From Microterricola gilva (lineage in GTDB: Bacteria; Actinomycetota; Actinomycetes; Actinomycetales; Microbacteriaceae): a stretch of DNA of 64,000 nt. Shown here one piece after another: positions 3,692-60,030 of the stretch. Within the stretch, counting starts at the first letter, position 1, and each line of letters begins with the position of its first letter. The notes under the pieces are model-generated. The model did not search any database and had not been told where the DNA came from. It was given only the letters and a program-made list of their open reading frames with translations. The stretch covers positions 3,348,001 to 3,412,000 of the forward strand of contig NZ_SHLC01000001.1 of assembly GCF_004217495.1 (NCBI RefSeq), in the 5' to 3' direction. The translations under genes were made by a program, and so were the position numbers.

Positions 3692-3784
3692 GCGCGACGC
3701 GATGCGTCGCGAAAGGCTTGCCGCGACAGCGGCAAGCAAGGCGGCAGCCCCAGCCAAGGAAATCTCAGGAACCGCAACCGGTGC
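3692..3784 (+). repeat. 68-bp GNA-hairpin repeat, copy A (with 25-bp extra hairpin)
   Basis: The hairpin CGCGACGC-GAT-GCGTCGCG (3693-3711) is followed by the conserved GGCGGCAGCC, CCAAGGAAATCTCAGGAACC and a final GGTGC. Compared with copies C, D and E it has about 25 extra bases. These form a second hairpin, CTTGCCGC-GACA-GCGGCAAG (3717-3736). The copy lies just upstream of the lplA -10 box. Confidence 0.8.
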
Positions 3785-3815
3785 GGGTGCGGGTGCCGGT
3801 GCGGGTGTGCGTACG

Positions 3816-4706: not shown

Positions 4707-4721
4707 GCGGCCATTCTGGCA

Positions 4722-4780
4722 GCTCGACGCGCAGCGTCGAGAGAGGCGGCAGCCAGATCCAAGGAAATCTTTGGACAGTT
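4722..4780 (+). repeat. 68-bp GNA-hairpin repeat, copy B (3' half diverged)
   Basis: The hairpin CTCGACGC-GCA-GCGTCGAG (4723-4741) differs from the other copies at both arms in a compensating way, so pairing is kept. GAGAGGCGGCAGCC and CCAAGGAAATCTTTGGA follow; beyond that the match fades. It lies upstream of the hydrolase -10 box. Confidence 0.65.
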
Positions 4781-4795
4781 CTCGGTTCCTGCCGG

Positions 4796-4868
4796 GTTTC
4801 GACCCTTCGACAAGCTCAGGTCAGGCCAAGCTCAACCACCCGAGGCCCCCTCCCGGGCAGGCCTGACC
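4796..4868. repeat. TTTCGACAAGCTCAACC-type repeat plus inverted repeat
   Basis: Contains TTTCGACCCTTCGACAAGCTCA and AAGCTCAACCACCC. Related sequence occurs at 28711-28746 and 49247-49292. An inverted repeat, GGTCAGGCC (4819-4827) with GGCCTGACC (4860-4868), spans the second part. It lies between the divergent hydrolase and marR genes. Confidence 0.5.
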
Positions 4869-5351: not shown

Positions 5352-6826
5352 GTGCCATGTTCCGCTCCCTCTCGAATTACAACTACCGCGTCTGGTTCAT
5401 CGGCGCGCTGGTCTCCAACGTGGGTGCGTGGATGCAGGCGACGACACAGAACTGGGTCGTGCTCACCCAGCTGACCGACAACGACGCCGTGGCCGTCGGC
5501 ATCACGATGGCACTGCAGTTCGGGCCGCAGCTCGTGCTCGTGCCGATCACCGGCCTCATCGCCGACCGCTTCGACCGGCGCACGATCCTCTTCTTCACGC
5601 AGTCGTCGCTGATGCTGCTCGGCACCGCGCTCGGCCTGCTGCTGCTGCTCGGCCACGCCGAGCTCTGGCACCTCTACCTCTTCGCGCTGCTGCTCGGCAT
5701 CGTCAACGCCATCGATGGCCCCGCCCGCCAGACCTTCGTCTCCGACCTGGTCAGCGAACACAACATGGCTAACGCCGTCGCCCTCAACTCGGCCTCGTTC
5801 AACGCCGCCCGCCTCATCGGTCCGGCCGTCGCCGGCCTGCTGATCGTGCTCATCGGCTCCGGCTGGGTGTTCATCGTCAACGCCTTCACCTTCATCGGCG
5901 TGCTGATCGCCCTCGCCATGCTCAACTCGAGCAGGCTGCGCCGGATGCCGCGGGCTCCCCGCTCCCGCGGGCAGTTCGTCGAGGGCTTCCGCTACGTGTC
6001 GAAGCGGCCAGACCTCATCGTCGTCTTCATCATCGTGTTCCTTGTCGGCGCCTTCGCCATGAACTTCCCGATCGTGTCCTCGACCATGGCCGTCGAATTC
6101 GGTCGAGGCGCCGGCGAGTACGGCCTGCTCTCCTCGATCCTCGCGATCGGCTCTCTCTCCGGCGCACTGCTCGCCGCGCGGCGCGAGCGGGCCCGGTTCG
6201 GCGTGATCATCATCGCCGTCGGCGGCCTGGGCGTCGCCTCGTTGATCTCCGCGCTGATGCCGTCGTTCTGGACCTTCGCCGCCTCCGTGATCTTCATCGG
6301 CTTCGCCGCCGTCACCATGCTCACCACGGCGAACGGCTTCGTGCAGACCACGACGGAGCCGGCCGTGCGCGGCCGCGTGATGGCGCTCTACATGGCGATC
6401 CTGATGGGCGGAACCCCCGTCGGCGCCCCGATCGTCGGCTGGGTCGCGAACGCGATGGGCCCGCGCTGGGCGCTCGGCGTCGCCGCGGTCGCCGGCCTCG
6501 TCGGCTTCGCGATCGGAGTCGGCTGGCTCGTCATTGCCCATGAGCTGCGCCTGCAGCCGCACCCGCAGGCCCGTTGGCGCCTCGTGCTGACGCACAGCGG
6601 CCGCCCGCTCAGCGCCTTGATCGAGGCAGAGTCGCTCGACGGCCGGATCGACGGCGTGCGGATGCCGGTGCCGACAACGACCACGCCGATCGCCGTGGTC
6701 AGCGAGAACCGCGTGACGCCCGAGGAGTTCTCGGAGCAGGTCGCGCTCACCTCGCCGATCCCGCTGCCGAAGTACCAGCGCGAGCGCGCAGAGGCCGAGG
6801 CCGCGGAAGGCGCCGGCCGCCGCTAA
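5348..6826 (+). CDS. MFS transporter, drug/siderophore exporter type (DHA3)
   Basis: Twelve-helix major facilitator, 492 aa, resembling EntS/TetV-like DHA3 exporters. The N-terminal half carries the A-like motif GLIADRFDRRTILFFTQ after helix 2 and DGPARQTFVSDLV near helix 4. The C-terminal half has NGFVQTTTEPAVRGRVMALY, typical of this group. A soluble tail of roughly 90 residues follows the last helix and ends Ala/Glu/Arg-rich. Translation is coupled to marR through a GTGA overlap. The TAA stop lies inside AAGGAAACGTCAAGAACCG, which looks like the 3' part of the 68-bp repeat family. The exported compound is unknown. Confidence 0.8.
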   Translation: MSAMFRSLSNYNYRVWFIGALVSNVGAWMQATTQNWVVLTQLTDNDAVAVGITMALQFGPQLVLVPITGLIADRFDRRTILFFTQSSLMLLGTALGLLLLLGHAELWHLYLFALLLGIVNAIDGPARQTFVSDLVSEHNMANAVALNSASFNAARLIGPAVAGLLIVLIGSGWVFIVNAFTFIGVLIALAMLNSSRLRRMPRAPRSRGQFVEGFRYVSKRPDLIVVFIIVFLVGAFAMNFPIVSSTMAVEFGRGAGEYGLLSSILAIGSLSGALLAARRERARFGVIIIAVGGLGVASLISALMPSFWTFAASVIFIGFAAVTMLTTANGFVQTTTEPAVRGRVMALYMAILMGGTPVGAPIVGWVANAMGPRWALGVAAVAGLVGFAIGVGWLVIAHELRLQPHPQARWRLVLTHSGRPLSALIEAESLDGRIDGVRMPVPTTTTPIAVVSENRVTPEEFSEQVALTSPIPLPKYQRERAEAEAAEGAGRR

Positions 6827-6853
6827 GGAAACGTCAAGAACCGCCACCACTGC
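6822..6853 (+). repeat. Possible 3' remnant of the 68-bp repeat (copy F)
   Basis: TAAGGAAACGTCAAGAACCG and the following CCACCACTGC align to the last 30 bases of copies A and C. The hairpin half is absent, and the match includes the MFS stop codon. This is weaker than copies A to E. Confidence 0.4.
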
Positions 6854-6925
6854 CTGACGGTTTGGACGGCTCTACCGGCTGGCTGCGCCTGAAGTGGCGC
6901 GGAGCAACAGCGATACGCTCGAAGC

Positions 6926-27631: not shown

Positions 27632-28627
27632 ATGAACTCATCCGCCGAGACCCGGGTCGGGGTCTACATCGACTTCGACAACATCGTGATCTCCCGCTAC
27701 AACCAGCTGCACACCCGCGGGCAGTTCCAGAAGGACCACGCGCGCGACGTCGTTCCCGGCAACGGCGGGACGTCCCCCGAGGTCGCCAACCGCCTCGACG
27801 AGGCCACGGTCGACCTCGGCGCCATCCTCGACTTCGCCTCCTCCTTCGGCACGATCGGCGTGAGCCGTGCATACGCCGACTGGTCGGTCCCCATCAACGC
27901 GAGCTACCGCCGCCAGCTGATCGACCGTGCCGTCGACTTGGTGCAGCTGTTCCCGGTTGTCGCATCGATGAAGAACGGTGCAGACATCCGTCTCGCCGTC
28001 GACGTCGTCGAAGACCTGTTCCGCCTCTCCGACCTCACCCACGTCGTGATCGTCGCCGGCGACTCCGACTACATCGCGCTGGCCCAGCGCGCCAAGCTGC
28101 TCGGCCGCTACGTCGTCGGAATCGGCGTGGCCGGCGGCACGAGCAAGGCACTCGCCGCCGCCTGCGACGAGTTCGCCGACTACGACGCGCTGCCGGGAAC
28201 CGTGCGGAGCGCCGCGCAGGCGCGGCCGAAGCGCAAGACCGATGCCGATGCTGCCGCAGCCACCTCGACCGGTGCGGATGCCGCGGCGCCCGGCGACGAC
28301 TCGGCCCAGGCCAAGCGCGGCAGCAAGCCGAAGTCGGCACGCCAGGCGAAGGCAGCGCACGAGGCGGCCGGCGATCTGCTCACCCGGGCACTCGAACTCG
28401 GCGCGGCCAAGTACGACGAGGACTGGCAGGCCAGCGGCAACGTGAAGAACCAGATGCTGCGCATGGACCCGACGTTCCAGGAGCGCGCCCTCGGCTTCTC
28501 GTCCTTCACCGACTTCGTCAAGTCGATGGAGCCGCGGGTCGAGATCGACGAGACGCACCCCTCGCGCCGCATCCGACTCCGCCCGCTCGGCACGCAGCTG
28601 ACGTTCTCGGCGCTGCCGGAGGCCTGA
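27632..28627 (+). CDS. NYN-domain (PIN-like) protein with C-terminal OST-HTH/LOTUS-like region
   Basis: Putative RNA-binding ribonuclease, 331 aa. The NYN domain spans about residues 8-185. Acidic residues at the expected positions are VGVYIDFDNIVIS, DIRLAVDVVEDLF and HVVIVAGDSDYIAL. An Ala/Lys-rich linker (residues about 195-250) leads to a C-terminal segment (AGDLLTRALEL..., GFSSFTDFVKSMEPRVEI) that resembles an OST-HTH/LOTUS RNA-binding module. GAGGGG precedes the ATG. It has no functional neighbour. Such proteins are widespread in Actinobacteria without a defined substrate. Confidence 0.75.
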   Translation: MNSSAETRVGVYIDFDNIVISRYNQLHTRGQFQKDHARDVVPGNGGTSPEVANRLDEATVDLGAILDFASSFGTIGVSRAYADWSVPINASYRRQLIDRAVDLVQLFPVVASMKNGADIRLAVDVVEDLFRLSDLTHVVIVAGDSDYIALAQRAKLLGRYVVGIGVAGGTSKALAAACDEFADYDALPGTVRSAAQARPKRKTDADAAAATSTGADAAAPGDDSAQAKRGSKPKSARQAKAAHEAAGDLLTRALELGAAKYDEDWQASGNVKNQMLRMDPTFQERALGFSSFTDFVKSMEPRVEIDETHPSRRIRLRPLGTQLTFSALPEA

Positions 28628-28639
28628 GCGTCGCCACAA

Positions 28640-28707
28640 GCATCGGTCGCCGTTCCTGACATTGCCTTGGTAAAGGCTGCCGCCTTTCGCGACGCTTCGC
28701 GTCGCGC
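28640..28707 (-). repeat. 68-bp GNA-hairpin repeat, copy D
   Basis: The full 68-bp unit on the minus strand, with hairpin CGCGACGC-GAA-GCGTCGCG (28706-28688) followed by GGCGGCAGCC, CCAAGGCAATGTCAGGAACG and a final CGATGC. It lies 13 bp after the NYN gene. Confidence 0.85.
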
Positions 28708-28710
28708 TGG

Positions 28711-28781: not shown

Positions 28782-29780
28782 TCAGGCGGAGGCCTCCGTC
28801 AGCAGCGCGAGCTCGGCCGCGCTCAGCTGCAGCGACGCCGAGGCGATGAGGTCTGGCAACTGCTCGGCCGTGCGCGCGCTGGCGATCGGTGCCACGACGG
28901 TCGGCTGCTGCCGGAGCCACGCGAGGGCGACGCTGGCCACGGATGCCGCGTGCACCGCCGCGACCGCGTCCAGCGCCGCGAGCACCCCGCGGCCGCGCTC
29001 ATCGAGGTACGCGCGCGCCGCTCCGGCGCGCGGGCTCTCGGGAGTCGCCGCCGAATCCACTGCGGGGGCCGCGGCATCCGGCGCATCACGGTACTTGCCG
29101 CTCAGGAAGCCCTTGGCGAGCGCGAAGTAGGGGAACACCGCGAGGCCCTCGCGCTCCGCCCGCTCGCGCAGGCCATGCTCGAAGTCGCGCTCAACGAGGT
29201 TGTAGTGCGGTTGCAGGGCGACGGCCCGGTGCAGCCCGTTCTCGGCTGTCACGCGGAACCACTCGTCGATGCGCTCCGGCGAGTAGTTGGAGAGCGCGAT
29301 GTAGCGCACCTTGCCGGCGTCGACCAGTTCGGAGAGGGCACCGACGGTGTCGGCGAGCGGAACGCTCTCGTCGTCGAAGTGCGCGTAGTAGAGGTCGATG
29401 TGGTCGGTGCCGAGGCGGGCGAGGGAGGCATCCGCAGCGGCCCGGATGTTGTCGGGGGCGAGCCCGCTGAACGACGGGTGCGTGCTCACCTTGCTGGCGA
29501 TCACGAGGTCGTCGCGGTTGCCCCGCGACGCCGCCCAGCGGCCGATGACGCTCTCGCTCTCGCCTCCGCTGTGGCCCGGCGCCCAGTGCGAGTAGCCGTC
29601 GGCGGTGTCGATGAAGTTGCCGCCGCCCGCGACGAAGGCATCGAGCACCTCGAAGGAGGCGGTCTCGTCGGCCGTCCAGCCGAAGACGTTGCCGCCGAGC
29701 GCGAGCGGGAAGATCGAGAGATCGGAATCACCGATGGGCACCCGGGTGGCTGTGTCGGTCTGGATGGCGGGAACGGTCAT
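28782..29780 (-). CDS. Aldo/keto reductase
   Basis: NADPH-dependent reductase of the AKR superfamily, 332 aa, of the YajO/Tas-like group. The barrel start is FPLALGGNVFGWT, the active-site Asp and Tyr are in FIDTADGYSHWAPGHS, the Lys in VIASKVSTH, and the His in YYAHFDD. The cofactor end has PIASARTAEQLPDLIA. The start is the ATG after AGAGGAGA; a longer frame is available but lacks a signal. It is divergent from the FadR-type gene. The substrate is unknown. Confidence 0.85.
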   Translation of the reverse strand: MTVPAIQTDTATRVPIGDSDLSIFPLALGGNVFGWTADETASFEVLDAFVAGGGNFIDTADGYSHWAPGHSGGESESVIGRWAASRGNRDDLVIASKVSTHPSFSGLAPDNIRAAADASLARLGTDHIDLYYAHFDDESVPLADTVGALSELVDAGKVRYIALSNYSPERIDEWFRVTAENGLHRAVALQPHYNLVERDFEHGLRERAEREGLAVFPYFALAKGFLSGKYRDAPDAAAPAVDSAATPESPRAGAARAYLDERGRGVLAALDAVAAVHAASVASVALAWLRQQPTVVAPIASARTAEQLPDLIASASLQLSAAELALLTEASA

Positions 29781-54551: not shown

Positions 54552-55505
54552 ATGCTTGACGTGCGCCGACTGCGCCTGCTCCGTGAGGTGAAACTGCGCG
54601 GGACGCTCGCCGCCGTTGCCGACGCCCTCGCGTACAGCCCGTCCTCCGTGTCGCAGCAGTTGACACTGCTCGAGAAGGAGGTGGGCGTCCCCCTCCTCGA
54701 GAAGTCCGGACGCCGGGTGCTGCTGACCCCGCAGGCCGAGCTGCTCGTTGCACGGGCCGCCGAGGTGCTCGACACCCTCGAACGGGCAGAGGGCGAGCTC
54801 GCGGCATCCCTCACCACCGTGAGCGGAACCGTGCGCCTGGCCGTGTTCCAGTCGGCGGCGCACGCCGTCATCCCGCAGGCGCTCACGATCCTCGCCGCCG
54901 ACTACCCGGAGCTGCGGGTGGAGATGACGGAGCGCGAGCCGGATGCCGGCCTGTTCGAGGTGTCCGCCCGCGACTTCGACCTCGTCATCGCCGAGCAGTA
55001 CCCCGACCACACGCGTGAGCACCGCCCCGACCTCGACCGCGTGCACCTCGTCACCGACGTCATCCGCCTCGCTACCGCGCGACGCGTAGCGTCGCGAAAT
55101 GCGGCAGCCCCCAATCAGGGAGCCTCGGGGGCCGCGACCGATGCTCAAGCAATCCGGACTCTCGCCGAGGCCGCCGCACTGCCGTGGGTGATGGAACCGG
55201 AGGGCACGGCGGCCCGTGCCTGGGCCACGCAGCTCTGCCGCGCGGCAGGCTTCGAGCCCGATGTGCGCTTCGAGACGGCCGACCTCATGGCGCACATCCG
55301 CCTGATCCGCTCCGGCAACGCCGTCGGGCTGTTGCCCGACCTCGTCTGGGCCGGCGAGAACCCGACGGTGCGGCTGCTCGAGCTGCCCGGCACCCCGCAC
55401 CGTGACGTCTTCACCTCGGCGCGGCGCTCCAGCGCCGAGCGCCCGGGCGTCTCGGCCGTGCGCGAGGCCCTCGCGCGGGCCGTCGCGGAGCTCTCCCCCG
55501 CCTGA
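54552..55505 (+). CDS. LysR-family regulator carrying an in-frame repeat
   Basis: Probable regulator of putA, 317 aa. The winged helix is normal (MLDVRRLRLLREVKLRGTLA, VADALAYSPSSVSQQLTLLE, LEKSGRRVLLTPQAE). The effector domain is normal up to VHLVTDVIRLATA. It then runs through 68 bp of dispersed repeat (copy E, 55077-55144), read as ARRVASRNAAAPNQGASGAA, and resumes with TLAEAAALPWVMEPEG. The frame stays open. The insert replaces the loop where relatives usually have a short stretch such as LPADHP. It may still be active. GGGAGAA precedes the ATG. Confidence 0.8.
   Translation: MLDVRRLRLLREVKLRGTLAAVADALAYSPSSVSQQLTLLEKEVGVPLLEKSGRRVLLTPQAELLVARAAEVLDTLERAEGELAASLTTVSGTVRLAVFQSAAHAVIPQALTILAADYPELRVEMTEREPDAGLFEVSARDFDLVIAEQYPDHTREHRPDLDRVHLVTDVIRLATARRVASRNAAAPNQGASGAATDAQAIRTLAEAAALPWVMEPEGTAARAWATQLCRAAGFEPDVRFETADLMAHIRLIRSGNAVGLLPDLVWAGENPTVRLLELPGTPHRDVFTSARRSSAERPGVSAVREALARAVAELSPA
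55077..55144 (+). repeat. 68-bp GNA-hairpin repeat, copy E (inside lysR)
   Basis: The full 68-bp unit with hairpin CGCGACGC-GTA-GCGTCGCG (55078-55096), then GCGGCAGCCCCCAATCAGGG and CCGCGACCGATGC. It is in the same orientation as the host gene and translated without a stop. Confidence 0.85.
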
Positions 55506-58300: not shown

Positions 58301-59917
58301 ATGACTGAAGCTACTCACGACGTTGTGATTGTCGGCGGCGGGCACAACGGCCTCGTCGCCGCCGCCTATCTGGCCAAGGCAGGCAAGAGCGTGCTCCTGC
58401 TGGAGCGGGACGACCACCTCGGCGGCGCCGCCGTCTCTGCCGAGGCGTTCAGCGGCGTCGACGCCCGGCTCTCGCGCTACTCCTATCTGGTGAGCCTGTT
58501 GCCAGCCCGCATCATCGAGGAGCTCGGACTCGACATCCGGCTGGCGCAGCGCCGGTACAGCTCGTACACCCCGGATCCCGCCGACACCACGACGGGCCTG
58601 CTCGTCGACAACTCGAACCGCCGCTCCACCCGCGCCTCCTTCGCCCGTGTCGGCGCCGACGGTGACTTCGCCGCGTGGAACGACTTCTACGCCGACACCG
58701 CCCGCGTCGCCGCCGCGCTCTTCCCAAGTGTCTGCGAGCCGCTGCCGACGCGCAGCGAGGCCCGCCGGCTGCTCGGCGACGACGCCCTCTGGACCAGCTT
58801 CTTCGAGCAGCCGCTCGGCCAGGTCATCACCGAGCGCTTCGACAGCGACCTCGTGCGCGGCGTCGTCGCCACCGACGGCCTGATCGGAACCTTCACCTCC
58901 GTCGACGATCCGTCGCTCGACGCGAACCGCTGCTTCCTCTACCACGTGATCGGCAACGAGACCGGGGACTGGCACGTGCCGATCGGGGGCATGGGCGCCG
59001 TCTCCGGCGAGATCGAGCGCGCGGCGCGGCTCGCAGGCGCACGCATCGTGACCGGAGCGGAGGTCACGAGCATCGGTGCGGACGGCGAGGTGCGCTACCG
59101 GCGCGGCCGCCACGAGCGCCGTGTTGTCGGCGGCACCGTTCTCGCCAACGTCGCGCCGTTCGTGCTCGACCGCCTGCTCGCGGCCGGTGGTGCGGCGAGC
59201 GCCGGCATCGGCATTGCCGACGCCGACACCGGCGCGGATGCCGTCGCCGCCCGCCCGGAGGGCGCGCAGGTCAAGGTCAACCTCATGCTCAGCCGGCTGC
59301 CGAAGCTGCGCGACGCTACGGTGACCCCTGAGGCGGCCTTTGGCGGGACCTTCCACATCAACGAGCGCTACAGCCAGCTCGAGGGAGCGTACGACGAGGC
59401 CTCCCGCGGCGTGATCCCCGAGGTGCTGCCCTGCGAGATCTACTGCCACACGCTGGCCGACCCGTCGATCCTCGGGCCGGAGCTGGCGGCATCCGGGGCG
59501 CACACCCTCACCGTCTTCGCGCTGCACGCGCCCGACCGCTGGCTGACCGAGGCCAACAACGATGCGACACGGGAACGGCTCCAGGCCGCCGTGCTCGCCT
59601 CGCTCAACTCGGTGCTCGCCGAGCCGATCGAGGACGTGGTGATGCGGGATGCCGACGGCGAACTGTGCATCGAGACGAAGACGACGCTCGACCTCGAGCA
59701 CGCGCTGAACATGCCGGGCGGCAACATCTTCCACGGGCCGTTGTCGTGGCCGTTCCTCGAGGACGACGCCCCGCGGGAGACCGCGGCGGAGCGCTGGGGT
59801 GTCGCGACGGCGCACCCGCGCGTGCTGATCTGCGGCTCGGGTGCCGTGCGCGGCGGTGCCGTCAGCGGCCTCGGAGGGCACAACGCGGCCATGGCGGTGC
59901 TGGAGGAGTCGGAATAG
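58301..59917 (+). CDS. FAD-dependent phytoene-dehydrogenase-like oxidoreductase (PYROXD2-like)
   Basis: FAD-binding oxidoreductase of the phytoene desaturase superfamily, 538 aa. The dinucleotide fold is VVIVGGGHNGLVAAAYLAKA, then LLERDDHLGGAAVS. The middle shows HVPIGGMGAVSGEIERAARL, and the C-terminal FAD contact is HALNMPGGNIFHGPLSW followed by GSGAVRGGAVSGLGGHNAAM. No carotenoid genes are adjacent, so it is more like PYROXD2 than a carotenoid enzyme. It is leaderless (TAGGCT at 58289-58294, CGGCTC, ATG). The TAG stop overlaps repeat copy C. The substrate is unknown. Confidence 0.8.
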   Translation: MTEATHDVVIVGGGHNGLVAAAYLAKAGKSVLLLERDDHLGGAAVSAEAFSGVDARLSRYSYLVSLLPARIIEELGLDIRLAQRRYSSYTPDPADTTTGLLVDNSNRRSTRASFARVGADGDFAAWNDFYADTARVAAALFPSVCEPLPTRSEARRLLGDDALWTSFFEQPLGQVITERFDSDLVRGVVATDGLIGTFTSVDDPSLDANRCFLYHVIGNETGDWHVPIGGMGAVSGEIERAARLAGARIVTGAEVTSIGADGEVRYRRGRHERRVVGGTVLANVAPFVLDRLLAAGGAASAGIGIADADTGADAVAARPEGAQVKVNLMLSRLPKLRDATVTPEAAFGGTFHINERYSQLEGAYDEASRGVIPEVLPCEIYCHTLADPSILGPELAASGAHTLTVFALHAPDRWLTEANNDATRERLQAAVLASLNSVLAEPIEDVVMRDADGELCIETKTTLDLEHALNMPGGNIFHGPLSWPFLEDDAPRETAAERWGVATAHPRVLICGSGAVRGGAVSGLGGHNAAMAVLEESE

Positions 59918-59984
59918 CGCGACGCGAAGCGTCGCGAAAGGCGGCAGCCCTCAGCCAGGCAAACTCGGGAACCGCAGGCGATGC
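59917..59984 (+). repeat. 68-bp GNA-hairpin repeat, copy C
   Basis: The full 68-bp unit: hairpin CGCGACGC-GAA-GCGTCGCG (59918-59936), GGCGGCAGCC, CAGCCAGGCAAACTCGGGAA, ending CGATGC. The first base is the last base of the oxidoreductase stop codon. Confidence 0.85.
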
Positions 59985-60030
59985 TCGCGGGGTTGTCACG
60001 AACCTAACCGGCGCGGCTGGCTCGACTCCG

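Follow-up and report, generated by a model that had tools for sequence, protein, structure and literature searches.

A 68-bp sequence at the end of a gene of Microterricola gilva (positions 59917-59984 of the window, by which we mean the whole stretch of 64,000 nucleotides that was analysed) raises the question of what kind of repeat it is, and of what spreads or maintains it. A reading made from the sequence alone had listed five copies (A to E), each beginning with an 8-bp stem closed by a short loop, and had proposed a REP-like element recognised as single-stranded DNA, for example by a RAYT/IS200-type transposase encoded elsewhere. Here, we describe a computational analysis which confirms that the repeat is a real dispersed element and that copies A to E form one family. 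On our best reading it is a REP-like element of gene ends, not described before, in bacteria of the Microterricola group. Papers given by PMC number are cited from excerpts.

Results

A family of hairpin repeats in the window and in the genome

Each unit opens with a hairpin, usually of 8 bp, whose tip is GC-GNA-GC; a core that hardly varies, AAAGGCGGCAGCC, comes next, and after it a more variable body of about 40 nt. A covariance model was built from 40 rows that included copy C, with D, E, A, B and a degraded copy lying outside them. The features in the window are these:

59918..59936, + strand: copy C hairpin, CGCGACGC-GAA-GCGTCGCG, 8 bp, abutting the stop codon (59915-59917) of the gene 58325-59917 (+)
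59937..59949, + strand: copy C core, AAAGGCGGCAGCC
59950..60002, + strand: copy C variable body, with ragged 3' edge
59916-60002, + strand: copy C covariance-model match, E 4e-25
28622..28708, - strand: copy D; hairpin 28688-28706, loop GAA; core 28675-28687; E 1.1e-22
55076..55162, + strand: copy E; hairpin 55078-55096, loop GTA; core 55097-55109; E 3.3e-19
3693..3802, + strand: copy A; hairpins 3693-3711 (loop GAT) and 3717-3736 (tetraloop GACA); core 3737-3749, CAAGGCGGCAGCC
3715-3802, + strand: copy A covariance-model match, E 1.6e-18
4721..4806, + strand: copy B; hairpin 4723-4741, loop GCA; core 4742-4754, AGAGGCGGCAGCC; E 2.4e-16
6783..6871, + strand: degraded copy, E 1.6e-7, overlapping the 3' end of an MFS transporter gene (5357-6826, +)

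Copies A and B, which had been taken for variants, and the suspected remnant at 6822-6853 are all members of the family by the covariance model, and the loops are GAA, GAA, GTA, GCA and GAT, as the sequence-only reading gave them. A pattern of stem tip plus core with at most 3 mismatches matched the window 4 times, against 0 matches in 100 shuffles. Copy D is flanked by an NYN-domain gene (27632-28627, +) and an aldo/keto reductase gene (28782-29780, -), and copy E lies in frame within a LysR-family regulator gene (54552-55505, +; Pfam matches). Two plasmid-borne homologues are shorter than this regulator by 10-16 residues in the copy E region.

Copies C, D and E had each been described as exactly 68 bp long. 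The 8-bp stem of copy C stands, but its pairing begins at 59918, position 59917 being the last base of the stop codon TAG. The exact length of 68 bp falls: the two head-to-tail copies at chromosomal positions 226121 and 226191 repeat at 70 bp, and the 3' edge, where the body ends near GATGCTGG in the alignment, is ragged. The 5' end, on the other hand, is sharp, with a G preceding the stem in 73 of 75 M. gilva copies. The stem is followed by AAAG, or a one-base variant of it, in nearly all of the 73 M. gilva copies with a recognisable core.

With copy C as a BLAST query, 44 matches were found in the M. gilva genome (chromosome of 3,666,811 bases), out of which 40 candidates were scored. The covariance model gave 75 matches in the same genome (E <= 0.01) and 91, 28 and 25 in the congeners Root4, G076 and G212; the profile search that had been advised has thus carried the family far beyond the few copies of the window. 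Long-stem copies are under-counted here, because the model expects an 8-bp stem. Near chromosomal position 2477005 (L165), for instance, the list of 75 places misses a perfect 20-bp stem and the core that goes with it. Under stricter filters, 8 of 199 sampled Microbacteriaceae genomes match. The exact tip-plus-core pattern occurs in at least 81 stretches of a genome collection, nearly all from Microbacteriaceae; among the matches listed are Leifsonia Root4, M. pindariensis, Mycetocola, Cryobacterium and two VKM strains, and M. gilva itself may be missing from this list. 'Corynebacterium-like bacterium B27' and two MAGs (L112, L117), whose names are other or unclear, have one exact match each. 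The repeat had 0 matches in the viral contigs searched and no match in the plasmids and phages searched.

Doubled hairpins (at 661317, at 3351715, which is copy A, at 3547684 and at other places) and arrays of bodies (at 2692892 and in loci L137 and L271) indicate that modules of the unit duplicate too. A chromosomal region at 215000-232000 (L172) contains seven repeat matches within 6.3 kb, next to genes that we take, from their resemblance, to be purF, purM and one for a DUF3073 protein. Those of its copies that follow a small protein gene have counterparts in three Cryobacterium loci (L063, L068, L095).

The fold of the stem and the tip of the hairpin

Standard pairing was present in 100% of the 320 cells of the 40 aligned copies, with all 8 pairs in every row, whereas controls in which the stem alignment was slid were 3-57% paired. 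Cells changed on both sides numbered 21, against 2.4 in shuffles, and 0 of 500 shuffles reached 21. These data show that the letters of the stem are free while its pairing is kept. The 40 covariation copies had passed a filter for a GC..GC tip and a minimum of 6 pairs out of 8, and pairing and tip are therefore partly selected for in this set, since the search demanded both. The tip was accordingly judged on other sets, and the loop counts over all loci require the core first and the hairpin afterwards.

A core is recognisable in 73 of the 75 M. gilva copies. Of these 73, 66 have a GNA and 3 a GNNA loop, 70 have the inner GC/GC pairs and 71 the outer C-G pair; they have 24 distinct stems, one of which, CGCGACGC, recurs in 34. 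Over all fetched loci GNA closes 161 of 166 distinct 8-bp stems. Best-fit tetraloops over all fetched loci were GNNA in 7 of 8 (GCCA, GTCA, GACA) and GNRA in none of those 7; the set of 183 hairpins behind this count came out of 335 core-like places, of which many match by chance. The tip belongs, as the sequence-only reading had it, to a known type of very stable DNA mini-hairpin, a GNA or GNNA loop on at least two G-C pairs (PMC4686876, in excerpt). Such a tip favours a DNA reading, falling short of proof. The balance of G.T and A.C mismatches, which was meant to tell the RNA strand, was 16 to 10 (p 0.33, not significant).

Copies at gene ends, and a possible role as RNA

Genes were called with a custom script rather than a standard gene finder. 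By these calls, 29 of the 75 M. gilva copies are in the gaps of convergent gene pairs and 10 in those of divergent pairs; tandem gaps hold 22 that run antisense to both neighbouring genes and 7 that run in sense; a further 7 are inside a gene or unclassified, and 5 of the 75 are within predicted genes. When neighbours are merged, 22 are in convergent and 9 in divergent gaps, and the tandem gaps hold 21 copies in the opposite orientation and 7 in the same (p 0.013). A co-oriented gene precedes 36 copies, and 17 of these overlap its stop codon or start at most 12 nt from it. Together these counts show that the copies prefer the 3' ends of genes.

One explanation for this preference would be that the element works as RNA, the sense transcript of hairpin and core being a terminator or 3'-end stabiliser; such a role has been proposed for REPs. 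The closeness of those 17 copies to a stop codon speaks for it, as do the position of REPs in general, which mostly adjoin the 3' ends of ORFs (PMC3733652, in excerpt), and the terminator-like form of the long-stem copies at 2421316, where an A-run and a T-run flank a GC stem (e.g. TAATAAAAGGCGC-TGC-GCGCCTTTTATTA in G195). The mainly antisense direction of the tandem copies argues against a simple 3'-UTR RNA role, however, and the tetraloops are GNNA, not GNRA. An intrinsic terminator was rejected: AAAGG, not a T-run, directly follows ordinary stems, and terminator-like cores occur only inside some long stems. Membership of an Rfam family was likewise rejected, with 0 matches in the window at curated cut-offs, and a permissive Rfam search gave nothing convincing (best CRISPR-DR20, 17.1 bits against 42 needed). 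We therefore consider the RNA explanation unlikely. A suspected likeness of the core to SRP RNA was dropped, the SRP family being absent from both permissive Rfam searches.

Orthologous sites and the search for a mover

Sites were compared between species, with one genome per species. At the Root4 counterparts of 40 M. gilva sites a core-like match was found at 17, and 14 of the 40 were judged orthologous by eye; three Root4 loci (89324, 245608, 308729) were dropped because flanks or offset did not fit, and the remaining counterparts had no copy within the fetched stretch. Eighteen orthologous pairs at 16 sites, chosen by hand and with 2 sites appearing twice, had changes at 5 of 234 core positions, 106 of 681 body positions and 65 of 682 positions of the upstream flank, with at most one core change per pair (core against body, Fisher p 1e-9); the core figure is somewhat lowered because shared copies were recognised only if their core was within 3 changes. 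The stems of these pairs contain 6 compensated pairs, but two rows (343618, 3455116) are out of stem register, and no argument is built on the stem figures of this comparison. The difference between core and body points to a core that is probably maintained, either by selection or by conversion from one copy to another; gene conversion between copies could by itself account for the low rate of core change.

Site occupancy varies between species. The REP-like dispersed character that the sequence-only reading had assigned is upheld by this, in that many copies exist and sites occupied in one species are empty in another. Where the orthologous site is empty, as at 897948 and 228162, the stem CGCGACGC is missing too, and at 955534 Root4 has the hairpin alone, without core. 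Clean empty sites were sought in Root4 for 16 M. gilva sites, most of whose intergenic regions were too divergent for an exact junction.

The transposase that had been suggested was not found in M. gilva or in the Microbacteriaceae carriers searched. The Y1 transposase domain PF01797 had 0 matches in the M. gilva genome and in 0 of 11 Microbacteriaceae carrier genomes, and was present in both of two MAGs whose origin is other or unclear; in the sample of 199 Microbacteriaceae genomes it occurred in 1, which was none of the 8 carriers (the congener G212 was left out of this search). A REP/RAYT system, marked by a Y1 gene flanked by the repeat, is thus not supported in M. gilva and the sampled Microbacteriaceae carriers. 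A search for a Y2 transposase, the mark of IS91/Helitron-like elements, found 0 in 5, with controls also giving no match. A group IIC intron or other retroelement was rejected, as reverse transcriptase PF00078 was found in just 1 of 5 congeners, and so was a REPIN, there being no inverted pairs: 9 of 9 neighbours less than 600 bp apart are in the same orientation. The alignment likewise speaks against a MITE of a DDE transposon, with unit ends that have no inverted repeat and no target duplication of fixed length. Flank repeats scoring at least 19 were found at 17 of 160 copies and in 11 of 478 mispaired controls; they vary in length, and most belong to other repeats or to tandem arrays. Where direct repeats flank a copy and end at its stem, they measure 30 bp in L072 (a tRNA-Ser tail), 32 bp in L077 and 11 bp in L088. 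In Mycetocola manganoxydans (L072, 3848-3995; also L129) a copy has a tRNA-Ser(GCT) gene on one side and, on the other, 30 bp that duplicate the 3' end of this gene. As to a neighbouring gene family as mover, only small clusters emerged when 390 proteins predicted at the M. gilva loci were compared all against all, and one large protein family adjoins 2 of the 75 M. gilva copies.

The element might nevertheless be a selfish relic, a non-autonomous single-strand DNA transposon (RAYT/IS200-like or dependent on another HUH enzyme) that no longer has its enzyme. Its sharp 5' edge at the hairpin, its high copy number, the sites that differ among species and the head-to-tail arrays are what such a history would leave behind. 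A dead relic is not expected to conserve its core while its body drifts at orthologous copies, however; PF01797 is missing from all 8 sampled carriers, and no replication-strand bias was found, the leading strand carrying the sense copy in 31 of 75 cases in M. gilva, 13 of 25 in G212 and 13 of 28 in G076. With tip and core fixed at orthologous sites, we have considered a function ahead of a relic, which we hold to be quite unlikely.

Scarcity of copies near the replication terminus

In the M. gilva chromosome, with dnaA at 3,531,285, the interval 1.203-2.005 Mb is free of copies in the list of 75 matches. The copies at 1203532 and 808391 are in paralogous segments, each beside a protein of about 470 residues that presumably has an HNH-like motif. 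The terminus quarter contains 2 of 56 merged loci in M. gilva (p 3.5e-5), 1 of 22 in G212 (p 0.025) and 1 of 24 in G076 (p 0.016), and 10 of 60 for a control, another M. gilva repeat family (Fisher p 0.03 against the hairpin repeat). Such a distribution would fit a site that is bound by a chromosome-organising protein and must be kept away from the terminus, and a fixed tip adjoining a fixed core would suit a binding site. The three genomes are not independent, though, because they have many sites in common; KS tests of position gave p 0.0014 (M. gilva), 0.15 (G212) and 0.054 (G076), with 0.36 for the control repeat, whose positions cover 100 of 108 places. In Pseudomonas, moreover, repeat deserts near the terminus accompany strain-specific DNA, strain-unique DNA of SBW25 lying towards the terminus (PMC2718517, in excerpt). 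A chromosome-organiser site is, in our judgement, distinctly improbable.

A second dispersed M. gilva repeat, TTTCGACARGCTCAACCARCGG, is present at 108 places with at most 1 mismatch (e.g. 99388-99409), the reversed pattern having 0, and it often adjoins the hairpin element.

Stems rewritten between species

Stems of up to 18-21 bp exist, and stems of this length can include the stop codon of the gene. At 179750 the 18-bp stems of M. gilva and Root4 have only the tip in common, and the bodies are nearly identical. At 2421316 the stems of G076 and G195, of about 20 bp, differ by a block in both arms, and the preceding 50 bases differ at about one position. At 3479095 the apex is common to M. 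gilva, G076, G195 and Root4, and the base of the stem, which contains the stop codon, differs. At 2477005, finally, M. gilva and Root4 have an identical perfect 20-bp stem that begins in the last codon of the gene; in G076 and G195 the stem and the core are both missing.

Long stems that include a gene's own last codons and stop, and the bare hairpin of Root4 at 955534, might suggest that the mobile part is limited to core and body, which would insert right behind hairpins or terminators already in place, in the manner of group IIC introns, so that the stem would be target DNA; but the recurrence of CGCGACGC in 34 of 73 copies and its absence from the empty sites 897948 and 228162, together with the single congener of five that has a reverse transcriptase, make this highly improbable.

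Discussion

A proposed gene-end signal with a renewable stem

We tentatively propose, at somewhat less than an even chance for the explanation as a whole, that the repeat is a gene-end REP-like element in which tip and core would together form a single recognition signal for a host factor. This factor may act at gene ends on a folded single strand, either an extruded DNA hairpin or a transcript, and the hairpin would mark or insulate the end of the transcription unit. Template switching makes and mends perfect stems (PMC8794818, in excerpt), and the one-step double changes of stem blocks fit such a process. We propose that stems stay perfect because the polymerase, switching templates, copies one arm onto the other, including coding arms with the stop codon; the element would spread in a way that does not depend on a Y1 transposase in the host genome.

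A narrower form of this proposal appears rather unlikely to us: the repeat would be a host-kept single-strand DNA signal in which an extruded hairpin with an ultra-stable d(GCGNAGC) tip and the 13-nt core mark gene ends, it would be kept out of the terminus domain, and its stem would be renewed when the adjacent gene end is copied by foldback, the letters being expendable and the fold alone inherited.

REP families without a transposase are an open puzzle, both in how they spread and in whether they are useful or selfish. The fixed core and drifting body at orthologous sites make the latter question testable, and the GNA/GNNA tip yields a concrete, testable hypothesis of single-strand DNA. The stem blocks swapped between close species constitute a natural record of template switching in hairpins.

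Comparison with known systems

REPINs, with their RAYT transposases, are hairpin repeats found in tens of copies per genome, and the present repeat resembles them in this; it differs from them in that its sampled carriers have no Y1 transposase and its copies form no inverted pairs. We judge it to be a REP in the broad sense only, on the strength of 75 copies, 5 of them inside predicted genes, and the covariation of the stem. It was rejected as a GTAG/CGTC-tagged REP, since GTAG precedes the stem in 5 of 75 copies and the 3' side is of AAAG type. With the REPs of these super-families it has in common that they are short dispersed palindromes, mostly intergenic and beside the 3' ends of genes, some of which supply a stop codon or sit in frame within genes, and the CGTC class is reported to have no dedicated transposase (PMC3733652, in excerpt). 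Unlike them, it has no conserved GTAG tag, its stem sequence is free, a 13-nt core and a body of about 40 nt follow the hairpin, and among the matches listed it is confined to Microbacteriaceae and a few single-match records. The excerpt of PMC3733652 contains no mention that we found of Actinobacteria, Leifsonia or Clavibacter, and a literature search gave no description of the repeat among the entries listed, which were the leading ones where result sets were larger. The intergenic repeats of SBW25 (PMC2718517, in excerpt) are similar in their position at gene tails and in leaving large regions repeat-free, and are set apart, by their description, by an apparently unrelated sequence. The nearest likeness of the tip is to the GCGNAGC mini-hairpin DNA, which has the same class of loop, GNA or GNNA closed by at least two G-C pairs; in the excerpt of PMC4686876 that hairpin is a chemical and aptamer motif, whereas here it is the conserved tip of a genomic repeat family.
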